From Streptococcus thermophilus (GTDB taxonomy: Bacteria > Bacillota > Bacilli > Lactobacillales > Streptococcaceae): 64,000 nt of DNA. The DNA lies in assembly GCF_010120595.1 (NCBI RefSeq), contig NZ_CP038020.1:1550001-1614000 (forward strand), in the 5' to 3' direction. Shown here piece by piece: positions 5,790 to 50,905 of the stretch. The position numbers were made by a program, and so were the translations under genes. How positions within the stretch are numbered: the first letter of the stretch is position 1; the number at the start of each line of letters is the position of its first letter. The notes under the pieces are model-generated. The model searched no databases and was not told the origin of the DNA. It was given only the letters and a program-made list of their open reading frames with translations.

Positions 5790-6891
5790 TTACCATTCTT
5801 CCATACGCCACTTGAGGTAGGCATCGATGAAACCTTCAATATCCCCATCCATTACTTTATCAACCTGGGCAACTTCATAGCCTGTACGGTGATCTTTAAC
5901 CATGGTATATGGGGTGAAAACATATGAGCGAATTTGGCTTCCCCAAGTGATTTCTTTCTTATCACCTTTCAAGGCATTCACTTCTTCTGCTTTTTTTTCT
6001 TGCTCCATTTGATAGAGCTTAGCTTGAAGCATCTTCATAGCACGGTCTCTGTTTCCGTATTGTGTACGGTCAACCGTAGAAGATACAACAATACCTGTTG
6101 GAATGTGAGTCAAACGCACACCGGTAGAAACCTTATTGACGTTCTGACCACCTGCACCACCTGATCGGAAAGTATCCATCTTGATATCGTCATCACGGAT
6201 TTCGACTTCAATGGTATCATCTAATTCAGGCATGACTTCCACTGATGTAAATGAAGTGTGACGACGCTTAGCAGAGTCAAATGGTGAGATACGAACCAAA
6301 CGGTGAACACCCATTTCTGACTTGAGGAATCCATATGCATTAGGTCCCTCAAAAGCAAGAGTTACAGATTTGATTCCAGCCTCATCACCAGCCTGATAAT
6401 CCAAAATCTCAACTTTGAAACCTTTGGCATTTCCATAACGCTGGTACATACGGAGTAACATTTCTGCCCAGTCCTGAGCTTCAGTTCCACCAGATCCTGG
6501 ATGAATTTCAAGAATGGCATTGTTATGGTCATATGGCTCAGACAAAAGCAACGTCATCTCGTAACTTGTCATAATCTTATCAAGTTTTTCGAGCGTTTCT
6601 TCGAGTTCCTCTTGAACGCTATCATCTTCTTCCAACATTTCCAAATAAAGCTCTGTCTCGTCAGAGAGCTCTTTCATGTTGTTGAAAGTTTCATATTTTA
6701 TTTTGAGCTCATTTAACTCTTGAGAGGTCTTTTGAGCCGCAATATTATCATTCCAAAAATCTGGCTCAGTCATTCTGTTTTCAAGGAGCGCAATGTTCTC
6801 TTCCAAACGATCTAAGTCAAAGAGACCTCCCGAAGCTCACGAGCTTCTCTTGATTTTCAGAGATTTTTTGGCGAATTTCTGCCACTTCCAT
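5790..6891 (-). CDS. prfB: Peptide chain release factor 2, with programmed +1 frameshift
   Basis: RF2 recognises UGA and UAA and releases the nascent peptide. The gene starts at ATG 6891 (GGAGG upstream), reads 24 codons to an in-frame TGA at 6819-6817, and continues in the +1 frame from 6818. Joined, it gives 366 aa, close to the 365 aa of E. coli RF2. The anticodon-like SPF motif ([11 protein letters not shown]) and the catalytic GGQ ([12 protein letters not shown]) are both present. The frameshift makes production depend on RF2 shortage, a classic autoregulatory loop. It precedes ftsEX on the same strand. Not a pseudogene. Confidence 0.95.
6816..6831 (-). promoter_or_regulatory. RF2 autoregulatory +1 frameshift site
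   Basis: Minus strand reads GGGAGG TCT CTT TGA C: an SD-like GGGAGG three bases before the slippery CTT, then the UGA stop that RF2 itself decodes, followed by C, the weak-termination context typical of prfB. Confidence 0.93.
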
Positions 6892-6943
6892 GGATAGGTT
6901 TCCTCCATTTTATAGTATTATGCTTAATTCTAGCATAAATCAC

Positions 6944-8062
6944 TTAAATTTGCCATTTTGCACACACAAGCTCCCACTCTGCTTGGGAGTGCTCATCCTT
7001 TGGTGAGAGTCCCCTCATATAGTCTAACATAGCCTCATCGGGCTTCTTAACAATCTCACCGAGAGCCCAAATAGCCGTTGCCGTATGAATAGGATTATTA
7101 TTCTTATCAATTATCTCCATCAGTTTGACAATAGCATTGCGATCATGTAGGTTAGCCAAGGCAATAATGGCATTACGTTGAAGAATATTCTTCCCTCGCC
7201 AGGAACCGGCAATCATCCCAAATGTCTCCTTAAAGGACTTATTAGTCAGCTCTAGAAATGGGAGCAATTCAGGCATGGCAAGCTCAGGATCAATGTCTGA
7301 AGCCAAGGGATTGTCGATACCTCTGTTATATGGACAGGAAATCTGACAGATGTCACAACCATAGATAACAGTCTTTATCTTCTTTCGAAACTCCATATCC
7401 ATCATCCCCTTATCTTGGGTTTGAAAGGATAGGCAACGACGAGCATTCATCGTACCATCACCAATGAGACAAGATGTCGGACAGGCATCCAGACAACGAC
7501 GGCAATCCCCACAACCATAGTCAACTTCTTGGTCTGGTTCAATCTCTAGATTAGTGATAAGCTCGCCAAGATACATGTAAGACCCGTATTCTTTCGAGAT
7601 AACGAGTCCATTCTTTCCGATAAAGCCTATTCCAGCTCGCTTAGCCACTGCTGTATCAACCAAGGCTCCAGTGTCCACCATACCTTTATATTCGAAGTTT
7701 TCCGTTAGTTTTTCAATACCTTTTGCCAGACGTTTCAGTTTATCCTGCAAAACATAGTGATAATCTAGGCCCCATGAATTTGGAGTGATTTTGCCACGCT
7801 TAAATTCTGTTTTTTGGGGTTGTTGCGGCAACTTATGCGGATAGGCCACAGCAATAGATATGATGGTTTTAGCTGATTCCAAGCTCAATTTGGGGTAAAT
7901 ACGCTCTTCAATATTTTTATGTTCAAATCCTGTTGTTCGCCCTTCTTCGACACCAAGACGAAGGGATTTTTCCAGATAGTCGAAATCATCGGCGGTTGTA
8001 AAACCAATTTTTGAAATGCCAATTTCCTTGGCCATCTTTTGTATTTCTAACTTGATATTCAT
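6944..8062 (-). CDS. queG: Epoxyqueuosine reductase
   Basis: A 372-aa cobalamin-dependent enzyme that reduces epoxyqueuosine to queuosine in the wobble position of GUN-anticodon tRNAs. It has the N-terminal DUF1730 domain, two 4Fe-4S motifs (CGDCRRCLDACPTSCL near 183 and CDICQISCPYN near 236) and a C-terminal HEAT-like segment (GKNILQRNAIIALANL), the full-length architecture of bacterial QueG. No ribosome binding site precedes the ATG; instead a -35 TTGCCC, 17 bp and -10 TATGAT place the transcript start on the A of the ATG (see promoter 8069-8097), so the mRNA is probably leaderless. Divergent from the phosphoesterase at 8156. Confidence 0.92.
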   Translation of the reverse strand: MNIKLEIQKMAKEIGISKIGFTTADDFDYLEKSLRLGVEEGRTTGFEHKNIEERIYPKLSLESAKTIISIAVAYPHKLPQQPQKTEFKRGKITPNSWGLDYHYVLQDKLKRLAKGIEKLTENFEYKGMVDTGALVDTAVAKRAGIGFIGKNGLVISKEYGSYMYLGELITNLEIEPDQEVDYGCGDCRRCLDACPTSCLIGDGTMNARRCLSFQTQDKGMMDMEFRKKIKTVIYGCDICQISCPYNRGIDNPLASDIDPELAMPELLPFLELTNKSFKETFGMIAGSWRGKNILQRNAIIALANLHDRNAIVKLMEIIDKNNNPIHTATAIWALGEIVKKPDEAMLDYMRGLSPKDEHSQAEWELVCAKWQI

Positions 8063-8068
8063 ATTCTT

Positions 8069-8097
8069 ATCATAATGAAAACAGAGCCCAAGGGCAA
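8069..8097 (-). promoter_or_regulatory. queG promoter, predicted to make a leaderless mRNA
   Basis: On the minus strand -35 TTGCCC (8097-8092), 17-bp spacer, -10 TATGAT (8074-8069). The base 7 nt past the -10 is 8062, the A of the queG ATG. Confidence 0.55.
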
Positions 8098-8120
8098 GTA
8101 TTTTTTATCATCTTCGTCTA

Positions 8121-8149
8121 AGGACAAGGTACGACCTTTTTGTTACAAT
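8121..8149 (+). promoter_or_regulatory. Phosphoesterase promoter, predicted to make a leaderless mRNA
   Basis: -35 AGGACA (8121-8126), 17-bp spacer, extended -10 TGTTACAAT (TACAAT 8144-8149). Seven bases later is 8156, the A of the ATG. No Shine-Dalgarno lies upstream. Confidence 0.55.
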
Positions 8150-8155
8150 GTTTCT

Positions 8156-9013
8156 ATGACAAGACTTGCAGTAATGAGTGATTTACATATTGATTTAAAT
8201 CATTTTGAGACATATGAAATTGATACTCTTATAAAGTGTCTAAAAGATCAAAAGGTCACCCACCTCCATATCGCTGGTGATATTTCTAACCATTATTTTA
8301 TCGACACGAAACCTTTTCTACACAAACTTTCTAAGGAGGTCAAGGTTACCTCTAATTTAGGCAATCATGATATGCTTGATTTAGAGGATGACCTTATTGA
8401 TAATCTGGATTTTCAGGTAATTGATTTAGGAAGTATGACATTATTGGCCTTTCATGGATGGTATGATTATTCCTATTCTGGTGAAAAGTTGGATAAGATT
8501 CTCAAACGTAAGAAGCAACTCTGGTTCGACAGACGCCTCAAGCGATTGGGTAACGATCCAGAAATCTGTCACAATGGTCTCAAGAGGCTAGACGATATTC
8601 TAAATGATTTGGACACTAGCAAACTTATAGTTGCCATGCATTTTGTTCCTCACAATCGTTTCACCATGACTCACGAGCGTTTTAAACCTTTTAACGCTTT
8701 TTTAGGATCTGAACAATTCCATAAGATTTTCGTCAAGCACAGCGTTAAAGATGTTGTTTTCGGTCATGCCCACCGAAGTTATGGGACGGTAACGATTGAC
8801 GGTGTAACCTATCACTCGCGTCCTCTTGGATACCGACGTGAATGGGATTTAACCATTGACTTTGTTTCCAATCACCCTGAACTCAATCCTACTGGAACAT
8901 GGAACCTCTCCAAACGTTACAACCTAGTCAAGAAACGGCCAGAGTTTTTAGATTACGAAAAAAAGGAACTAGCAAATGAGTTCCTTTCATCTATGACATT
9001 ATTCGATTTATAG
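8156..9013 (+). CDS. Calcineurin-like metallophosphoesterase
   Basis: A 285-aa cytoplasmic protein with the complete dimetal phosphoesterase signature: SDLHID (8-13), GDISNH (about 41), GNHD (about 69), an HFVPH block and GHAH towards the C-terminus. The family hydrolyses phosphomono- or diesters; the substrate of this streptococcal branch is unknown. The ATG at 8156 starts the conserved MTRLAVMSDLH core; a longer in-frame start at 8075 would overlap the queG promoter and has no family support. There is no ribosome binding site, and promoter geometry predicts a leaderless transcript. Divergent from queG. Confidence 0.85.
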   Translation: MTRLAVMSDLHIDLNHFETYEIDTLIKCLKDQKVTHLHIAGDISNHYFIDTKPFLHKLSKEVKVTSNLGNHDMLDLEDDLIDNLDFQVIDLGSMTLLAFHGWYDYSYSGEKLDKILKRKKQLWFDRRLKRLGNDPEICHNGLKRLDDILNDLDTSKLIVAMHFVPHNRFTMTHERFKPFNAFLGSEQFHKIFVKHSVKDVVFGHAHRSYGTVTIDGVTYHSRPLGYRREWDLTIDFVSNHPELNPTGTWNLSKRYNLVKKRPEFLDYEKKELANEFLSSMTLFDL

Positions 9014-9038
9014 AACGACTCTTTGAGAGTCGTTTTTT
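9014..9038 (+). terminator. Terminator of the phosphoesterase gene
   Basis: Perfect 9-bp stem AACGACTCT / AGAGTCGTT with a 3-nt loop followed by TTTT, immediately after the stop codon. Confidence 0.85.
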
Positions 9039-9783
9039 AGTCGATGAAAAATCCCTGCTTTTGTAGATCCTTCAAGGTGTTAGCACGATTGGCAACGGAT
9101 TTGTCCATGGTCTTGGCAATTTGAGTCGTAAATTCATCAACTCTGTTATTGAGATCGCGAAGATCATAATACTCATGGACTTCAGCGTCGTAGTCTTTTA
9201 GCTCCGCCAAGGGATTTTCCAAATCTTTATAGTAATTTTCCATATGGATGACATGACGTGGCAAACGAGGTTTAAGCTGCGGTTCCTGGTCTGGCCAACC
9301 AACTGCTAAACCAACTGCTGGATAGACATACTTTGGAAGTTTGAGGAGCTCTGAAAGTTTGGCATTATCATTTAAGATACTGCCCAAATAAACAGTTCCC
9401 ATACCTAAACTCTCAGCAGCTACCACCATATTTTGCGCAGCAATCATAGCATCTGAAAAAGCTGAAATAAAGCGTTCAGGACTACCTTGTACCAAAGCCT
9501 TGGTTCCCTTAGCTTCTGCAATCAAGGTATTACGTCTTTGGTCTACAACAAATACAAAGAGGTGCCCAGCATTAGGAATATAGGGTTGGTTGGCAATTTC
9601 TGCAATTTGTTCCTTCAATTTTTCATCAGTAATACTGATAATCGAATAAGCCTGTCTAAAATTACTTGTTGGTGCATGTCTGGCAACATCAACCAGGAGG
9701 TTAACCTCTTCTTGTGCCAAAGCCACAGGTTTAAACTGACGAATACTGCGGTGATTGAGTTGTGTCTTAATAGTTTCGTTCAT
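9037..9783 (-). CDS. NADPH-dependent nitroreductase / FMN reductase (NfsA-NfrA type)
   Basis: A 248-aa flavoprotein of the nitroreductase superfamily: RSIRQFKP (12-19) for FMN phosphate contact, HAPTSNFRQAYS (36-47), the AAESLGMGTVYLGSI helix-strand block and a C-terminal AVGLAVGWPDQEPQLKPRLP motif typical of the NfsA/NfrA group. It would reduce FMN, nitroaromatics or similar acceptors with NAD(P)H. The ATG at 9783 has AAGGAGAAGGTC before it. Its 3' end abuts the convergent terminator of the phosphoesterase. Physiological substrate not deducible. Confidence 0.85.
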   Translation of the reverse strand: MNETIKTQLNHRSIRQFKPVALAQEEVNLLVDVARHAPTSNFRQAYSIISITDEKLKEQIAEIANQPYIPNAGHLFVFVVDQRRNTLIAEAKGTKALVQGSPERFISAFSDAMIAAQNMVVAAESLGMGTVYLGSILNDNAKLSELLKLPKYVYPAVGLAVGWPDQEPQLKPRLPRHVIHMENYYKDLENPLAELKDYDAEVHEYYDLRDLNNRVDEFTTQIAKTMDKSVANRANTLKDLQKQGFFID

Positions 9784-9856
9784 GACCTTCTCCTTAACTT
9801 ATGATTAGTTCCTTTCATTATAAACAAGACAGCTAATGAATTCAAGATGTGATAAG

Positions 9857-12640: not shown

Positions 12641-12785
12641 ACCAAAAGAGACCTGTTTAATTAAAAACAAGTCTCGCTGTTTAAGAATATGCCGGAAATG
12701 TAAAATTTCGTAATGACGACATAATCGCAATCTTTAATCAAATCTCATGATTAAAGTCGCCTGCTACTCCCTTGATTTTTCCTTT
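12641..12785 (-). promoter_or_regulatory. yybP-ykoY (Mn2+-sensing) riboswitch with terminator
   Basis: The minus-strand leader carries the conserved core GGGAGTAGC (12771-12763) near the 5' end and the distal CAGCGAGAC element (about 12680-12671), separated by a multi-helix insertion, as in yybP-ykoY RNAs. GAGACTTGTTT (12675-12665) from the aptamer's 3' side can instead pair with AAACAGGTCTC (12658-12648) to make an intrinsic terminator followed by TTTT. Mn2+ binding should prevent terminator formation and turn on the exporter. Boundaries are approximate. Confidence 0.88.
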
Positions 12786-49494: not shown

Positions 49495-50905
49495 GGCTTT
49501 ATAATTTTTGTAGTGGGTAAAACTACTGTAGGGATTATAGAGCTTTTTGAGTGTACACAAAAAGTCCCATAAGAACTATAATGAAAAGCAACCAAACCAT
49601 CATTAGGAAGAACTTATGAGACTTATTAAGAATAACACAGAATTAATCGGAATCAAAGACCAAAATATCAACATTTCACTTGTTTTTGAAACTGACACTC
49701 ATATCGAGATTCAAGCAAAACTTGATTACCCTGCACCATCATGTCCTCATTGCCATGGAAAGATGATCAAGTACGACTTTCAAAAGCCTTCTAAAATCCC
49801 TCTTCTCGAGCAAGCGGGAACACCAACTCTACTACGTCTGAAAAAACGTCGTTTCCAGTGTAAAAGTTGTAGAAGTGTCACGGTAGCTGAGACATCTATC
49901 GTTGAGAAAAACTGCCAAATCTCCAATCTAGTCCGACAAAAAGTTACACAACTCCTAACTGAGAAAGTGTCACTAACTGATATTGCAAGAAGACTTCGCG
50001 TGTCGACGTCCACTGTCTATCGTAAGCTTGATCAGTTTACTTTCAAGGAACATTATGACAAACTCCCTGCTGTTATGTCCTGGGATGAGTTTGGGTTCAA
50101 GAAAGGGGAATTGGCTTTTGTAGCGCAGAATTATGAGACAAACGAACTCATAACCATCCTTGATAATCACCGCCAAACTACTATACGAAACTACTTTTTG
50201 AAGTATCCATTGAAAGTCCGATAACAGGTACAGTTTATCACGATGGATATGTCTGGAGCTTATATTCCACTGGCTCGCAAGCTCTTTCCAAACGCAAAAA
50301 TCGTTCTTGATCGTTTCCACATCATCCAGCACCTTGGACGTGCCTTTTTAAAGACAAGAATTGCAATTATGAACCAGTTCGATAAGAAGTCACTACCCTA
50401 TCGAGCCCTGAAAAATCACTGGCGACTCTTCCAAAAAGACAGATGTAAGTTATCTCTCAACTCTTTCTATTTAAAGACTTTCCGTCAAACTTTAGTACCA
50501 CATGAAGTCGTTGCGAAGACACTAGTCTTTTCAAAAGAGCTTACTGACTACTATACACTTTATCAGCTTTTGCTTTTTCACTTTCAGGAGAAGAGAGTAG
50601 ATGAGTTCTTTGAACTGATAGAGGAAAATAGGAGCAAGGTCAATCATTATTTTCAAACTGTCTTTAGGACTTTTCTTAGACACAAGCAATACATCAAAAA
50701 CGCACTAGAAACGGACTATTCAAATGCGAAACTTGAAGCGACTAATAAGTTGATCAAAGACATCAAACGTTTGGGCTTCGGTTTTAGAAACTTTATCAAC
50801 TTTAAGAAGCGTGTCTTCATCACACTGAACATACATAAAAAAAGGACCTATCCGGTCCTCTCTAGATGTTAGCTTTTCGTCACCCACTACAGTTGACAAA
50901 GAGCC
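49495..50905 (+). mobile_element. ISL3-family insertion sequence (IS1167-like), inactivated
   Basis: A 1411-bp element bounded by imperfect 24-bp inverted repeats (49495-49518 and 50882-50905), both ending in TGTAGTGGGT inside, with outer GGCT. IS1167 of S. pneumoniae (about 1.4 kb) has the same end, GGCTCTTTGTCAACTG. It encodes one transposase, interrupted by a stop codon. It lies between the adhesin remnant and the pyk terminator. Confidence 0.88.
49616..50872 (+). pseudogene. ISL3-family transposase with one nonsense codon
   Basis: Reading frame from ATG 49616 to 50872 stays in phase through both halves, with a single TAA at 50222-50224 (KVR-stop-QVQFITMDMSG). The N-terminal zinc-finger (CPHCHGKM, CKSC), an HTH (LTDIARRLRVSTSTVYRKL) and the DDE domain (SWDEFGFKK; MDMSGAYIPLARKLFPNAKI; SNAKLEATNKLIKDIKR) are all present, giving about 418 aa, the usual ISL3 length. 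The lone nonsense codon should abolish transposition. Confidence 0.88.

Follow-up and report, generated by a model that had tools for sequence, protein, structure and literature searches.

The locus under study lies in a stretch of 64,000 nucleotides, hereafter the window, which corresponds to positions 1550001-1614000 of contig C1 in a Streptococcus genome of 2.10 Mb. Two divergent genes stand there head to head, with 93 bp separating their start codons. On the reverse strand, queG (8062..6944, start ATG at 8062-8060) encodes a tRNA epoxyqueuosine(34) reductase of 372 residues, whose product scores 374 bits against TIGR00276, above the cut-off of 200 for membership, and also matches Pfam QueG_DUF1730. 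On the forward strand, a gene at 8156..9013 (start ATG at 8156-8158) encodes a metallophosphoesterase of 285 residues that belongs to subfamily TIGR03729 (acc_ester), with 270 bits against a membership cut-off of 148 and a match to Pfam Metallophos (PF00149). Among the loci of named relatives, that of S. vestibularis is the nearest, its phosphoesterase being 88% identical to that of the window. The coordinates, the divergence and the 93-bp gap given in a first-pass annotation of this DNA were reproduced exactly.

Rfam matches at gathering thresholds were sought over the whole window, and none marks an RNA element in 8062-8156; the three that were found all lie elsewhere, including SSRC10 (12643-12751, reverse strand), which precedes a gene for a P-type cation ATPase, and Srn266 (49495-49604, reverse strand). 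After the phosphoesterase stop codon, an inverted repeat followed by a run of T's was noticed by eye at about 9015-9040, overlapping the 3' end of a convergent nitroreductase gene; this repeat is absent from the motif scan output for this stretch. On the other side of the pair lies prfB, coding for release factor 2 (main frame 5790-6806, reverse strand; Pfam PCRF and RF-1). Inspection by eye of about 6800-6895 on the same strand revealed a short upstream frame ending in CTC TTT GA and then the main frame, with GGGAGG just before; this resembles the usual programmed frameshift site.

Both genes of the pair carry a -10 box 6 nt before the ATG, which is within the 6-7 nt that serve as the criterion for a leaderless gene. 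For queG, the hexamer TATGAT (8069..8074, reverse strand) is accompanied by a partial -35, TTGCCC (8092..8097, read 8097-8092). The phosphoesterase has an extended -10, TGTTACAAT (8141..8149, forward strand), with TACAAT as its hexamer, and a partial and weak -35, AGGACA (8121..8126). The distance between -35 and -10 is 17 bp on both strands, and no Shine-Dalgarno (SD) sequence precedes queG or the phosphoesterase in the window, all of which agrees with the first-pass description. The -35 boxes are poor, those of the phosphoesterase being the worst, with a best match of 1-4 of 6 positions over 51 distinct upstream regions. In addition, promoter-like matches over 6500-9800 are at chance level (10 against 8.6 +/- 3.1 in shuffled sequences), and matches to the promoter consensus were consequently dropped as stand-alone evidence.

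The background for these motifs was taken from the window together with ten 20-kb stretches of the same genome, a sample of 264 kb with 233 crude gene calls, some of which are spurious and some of which have frames with several possible starts. An SD match of at least 5 nt was found before 151 of these calls, one of 4 nt before 51 and none before 31, so that the earlier remark that most neighbours have a strong SD site is roughly right. Per upstream position, the frequency of TAnnnT is about 3.7% (1.3% for hexamers with at least 5 of 6 matches to TATAAT). Before SD-led starts it was never found with a spacer, that is, the distance from hexamer to start codon, of 6 or 7 nt (0/151). Among genes without an SD match, a set of 21 of which part may be spurious ORFs, 5 have TAnnnT at spacer 6 relative to their first ATG, queG among them; the phosphoesterase was counted in this set under a longer frame that opens at 8075. 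Elsewhere in the window, a gene for a BirA-like biotin ligase/repressor (30236, forward strand; Pfam BPL_LplA_LipB, HTH_11 and BPL_C) also lacks an SD match and has TATACT 6 nt before its ATG, and its sequence makes it a likely further leaderless gene.

In order to compare the two upstream regions across the genus, 147 Streptococcus genomes were searched, including the genome of the window; 60 contained a match to the phosphoesterase and 84 to queG. Three phosphoesterase rows were dropped (G141, with an internal stop; G113 and G056, broken) and that of G015, a gene split in two, was retained because its start is intact, leaving 57 upstream regions to be read. In all 57 the start is an ATG at the place homologous to 8156. 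The TAnnnT pattern lies 6 nt before the ATG in 56/57 genomes and 7 nt in the remaining one, and the base at -1 is a pyrimidine (C or T) in 57/57, with or without an adjoining queG. The extended form TGnTAnnnT at spacer 6-8 has 47 occurrences over the 51 distinct upstream regions, and none of these regions has an SD-like motif, such motifs being scored throughout from a motif list and not with a hybridisation model. The sampled genomes are related, and upstream regions were therefore clustered on the stretch from -60 to -19 (less than 70% identity between clusters), which removes kinship only partly; even so, 31 of the 32 phosphoesterase clusters have TAnnnT at spacer 6, against 9 at offset 11, which touches the -10, 8 at offset 1 and at most 3 at any other offset. 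In line with these counts, loci of named relatives show TAnnnT at spacer 6-7 in 25/26 cases and a pyrimidine at -1 in 26/26. The exception (L025) has GACAAT at the place of the -10, and one further locus (L023) has a poor TAATTT there and a better box 9 nt away.

A similar layout was observed for queG, for which one of the 84 rows was dropped as partial (G109), one start was shifted by one codon upstream (G127) and one gene in two pieces was retained with its start intact (G125). Over the 83 genomes read, the spacer is 6 in 34, 7 in 46 and 8 in 2, so that TAnnnT is present at 6-8 nt in 82/83 and at 6-7 nt in 80/83. The start codon is AUG in 83/83, and SD-like motifs are absent from all 77 distinct upstream regions on the same motif list. 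After clustering, 44/45 clusters have TAnnnT at spacer 6-8, and any other offset has it in 7 at most. The only genome with none (G112, locus L122) contains an imperfect 10-bp repeat, owing to which an extra ATG, out of frame, stands where a leaderless start would lie; the real ATG follows 10 nt downstream. The base at -1 is T in 34/34 of the genes with spacer 6 and a purine in 42/46 of those with spacer 7; before SD-led ATGs of the window's own genome, this base is a pyrimidine in 70/123 cases. Together, the two patterns imply that with either spacer a purine usually stands 7 nt past the -10, as at a start site of transcription. Judged from these sequences, the 46 queG mRNAs with spacer 7 may carry one extra nucleotide at the 5' end.

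Only part of the genus has the two genes as head-to-head neighbours less than 300 bp apart: 13 of the 54 Streptococcus genomes in which both were counted, the window included, a number that can miss pairs at contig ends. Seven genomes from three other genera have the same arrangement. This adjacency, together with the overlapping -10 boxes of four genomes that are described below, would fit a divergent pair that acts as a functional unit, in which overlapping occupancy of the promoters co-regulates queG and the phosphoesterase. In most of the counted genomes, however, the genes lie apart and each retains its layout, with spacer 6 in 44/44 phosphoesterase genes and spacer 6-8 in 69/70 queG genes, and we regard co-regulation of this kind as improbable. 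Since each gene keeps its layout when it stands elsewhere, they are most probably leaderless independently of each other, and the pair represents old neighbours and not a dependent unit.

It could also be argued that each mRNA begins with a leader, between a few and some tens of nucleotides long, made from another promoter and translated weakly or without an SD, and that the -10-like hexamers are a coincidence of base composition. The upstream regions are indeed AT-rich, the -35 boxes weak and promoter-like sites no more frequent in 6500-9800 than chance predicts. These features, however, do not account for a fixed spacing over dozens of diverged upstream regions, given a background of 3.7% per position, nor for the pyrimidine pattern at -1 and the lack of SD motifs, and we hold this explanation to be very unlikely. 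The most doubtful reading, to which we give almost no credit, places the phosphoesterase start at an in-frame ATG at 8075, inside the queG promoter, with 8156 as an internal codon: the longest open frame of the window for this gene (312 aa) does begin there, but the match begins at the ATG aligned with 8156 in every one of the 57 genomes, in the 285-aa form TIGR03729 is matched from residue 3 onwards, the longer frame would run through the conserved extended -10 of the gene itself, and the extension was rejected as not conserved because the open frame in the two closest matches (G114 and G083) has only 292 codons, compared with 320 here.

Taken together, these results make it highly probable that both genes are leaderless and are transcribed from back-to-back promoters, each gene being so independently, in an old neighbourhood and not as a special device of two genes. 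The first-pass annotation had predicted leaderless mRNAs for both; this prediction is strongly supported by the -10-to-ATG distance, whose conservation in the streptococcal comparison proposed there makes chance very unlikely, by the lack of SD motifs over 51 and 77 distinct Streptococcus upstream regions, and by the pyrimidine at -1 of the phosphoesterase. It is further supported by the lack of a conserved upstream extension of the phosphoesterase and of any in-frame start codon earlier than 8062 for queG, whose open frame was read upstream. According to this leaderless reading, the 93-bp region would consist of two back-to-back promoters of the sigma-A type with no leader. RNA polymerase would melt each -10, and +1, 7 nt downstream, would be the A of the ATG, so that the predicted transcription start sites (TSSs) of the pair are 94 bp apart. 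Each gene would then give rise to a leaderless mRNA beginning with 5'-AUG, to which the ribosome presumably binds directly, without a Shine-Dalgarno sequence. A promoter further upstream may yield an additional, longer mRNA.

Outside Streptococcus, the layout was scored as a hexamer at spacer 5-8 with at least 4 of 6 matches to TATAAT. Among other genera of the Streptococcaceae, 24 of the 28 genomes matching the phosphoesterase were sampled, and 22 of the 24 genes have the leaderless layout. The exceptions are a gene in genus g10, which has an SD-like motif, and that of a metagenome-assembled genome (MAG), G170, where 9 nt separate the hexamer from the ATG. The sample from outside the family comprised 17 of the 60 genomes with a match and represented three families; 3 gave no ATG, and among the 14 testable genes the leaderless layout was found in 0 and an SD-like motif in 12. 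Regarding queG, 26 of 40 matching genomes from other genera were sampled and 25 scored, the gene of G199, in two pieces, being left out. The layout is present in 13/25, with a marked dependence on the genus (7/8 in g9, 3/5 in g8 and 3/4 in g2; 0/4 in g3, 0/2 in g5, 0/1 in g4 and 0/1 in g10), and in two of the 13 (L165 and L166) the -10 is closely preceded by an SD-like motif. The comparison of 22/24 with 13/25 indicates that the layout is close to family-wide for the phosphoesterase and patchy for queG outside Streptococcus.

In four relatives the gap between the two ATGs has collapsed to 14 bp (G189, locus L204), 16 bp (G169, L164, and G196, L217) and 17 bp (G170, L177). The first three are genomes among the 12 of genus g9, and the fourth is the Streptococcaceae MAG mentioned above. 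From the A of one ATG to the A of the other the distance is 15-18 bp, and the opposed -10 boxes overlap. In G169 and G196, the queG TATAAT (spacer 6) and the phosphoesterase TATTAT (spacer 5) have five base pairs in common, judged from the spacer sequences. In G189 the phosphoesterase TACTAT at spacer 6 has two base pairs in common with the queG -10, and so does in G170 the phosphoesterase TATAAT, 9 nt from the ATG, with the queG TAAAAT (spacer 6); a box at 9 nt would be expected to leave a leader of about 3 nt. As far as sequence can tell, these collapsed spacers look like one bidirectional promoter that starts two leaderless or nearly leaderless mRNAs.

Bidirectional bacterial promoters have been defined by a shared -10 from which TSSs diverge at a distance of 7-25 bp, 18 bp being favoured (PMC12825309, PMC10268837); the main text of PMC12825309 makes no use of the word "leaderless". 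The predicted geometry of the four relatives fits this class, with 15-18 bp from A to A compared with the favoured TSS distance of 18 bp. The pair of the window lies outside it, its predicted TSSs being too far apart and its two promoters standing back to back without overlap. We consider that there is about an even chance that this phosphoesterase is leaderless throughout the Streptococcaceae as a family trait, and that in some lineages this let the intergenic spacer between queG and the phosphoesterase shrink to 14-17 bp, where overlapping and nearly symmetric -10 boxes would form a bidirectional promoter from which both mRNAs start leaderless or nearly so, with the -35s inside the opposite genes. 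If true, an intergenic spacer of this length would come close to the lower limit for a divergent gene pair. The collapsed spacers would also allow a test of whether one -10 that is nearly symmetric is enough to drive both leaderless genes. The collapsed, possibly bidirectional version is more unusual than the pair of the window and is the one most worth an experiment.

The in silico survey of TA-led genes by Zheng et al. 2011 describes leaderless genes in the Lactococcus-Streptococcus clade, and in TA-led genes a TANNNT some 12 bp ahead of the start codon takes the place of the SD (PMC3160421); it proceeds genome by genome, whereas here one gene pair is followed across a family. In the first-pass annotation, leaderless translation was called uncommon in streptococci and little described there. 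Mapped transcriptomes contradict this view, with leaderless mRNAs reaching 8-9% in three species. The published counts are 78 leaderless mRNAs (8%) in S. agalactiae, all with AUG and 90% starting on its A (PMC4448216), 67 (8.6%) in S. pyogenes, 54 of which also occur in S. agalactiae, 39 being common to all three species (PMC6431027), and 70 of 768 operons (9%) in S. pneumoniae D39, where the leaderless pbp2A mRNA was efficiently translated in a reporter (PMC6212727). The genes described here share with these dRNA-seq and Cappable-seq sets the AUG start, a TSS expected on its A, the lack of an SD and conservation between species; 5' ends were measured in those studies and are predicted for queG and the phosphoesterase. 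The words "queG" and "phosphoesterase" are absent from the three main texts, a literature search judged by titles and the openings of abstracts found no report of queG as a leaderless gene, and "leaderless mRNA" does not appear among the matches listed for thermophilus, salivarius, suis and mutans.

The pair is a new case, well supported and unusually well conserved, of a type already described, and is only modestly surprising. Our findings extend the leaderless genes of streptococci by two well-supported members. The sampled phosphoesterase relatives outside the family, in which the -10 is missing from its place and an SD-like motif is usual, together with the variation of queG between genera, provide natural comparisons to address what leaderlessness is for. 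Leaderlessness can be a trait that is long kept gene by gene, independently of the neighbourhood, which argues for selection on it.
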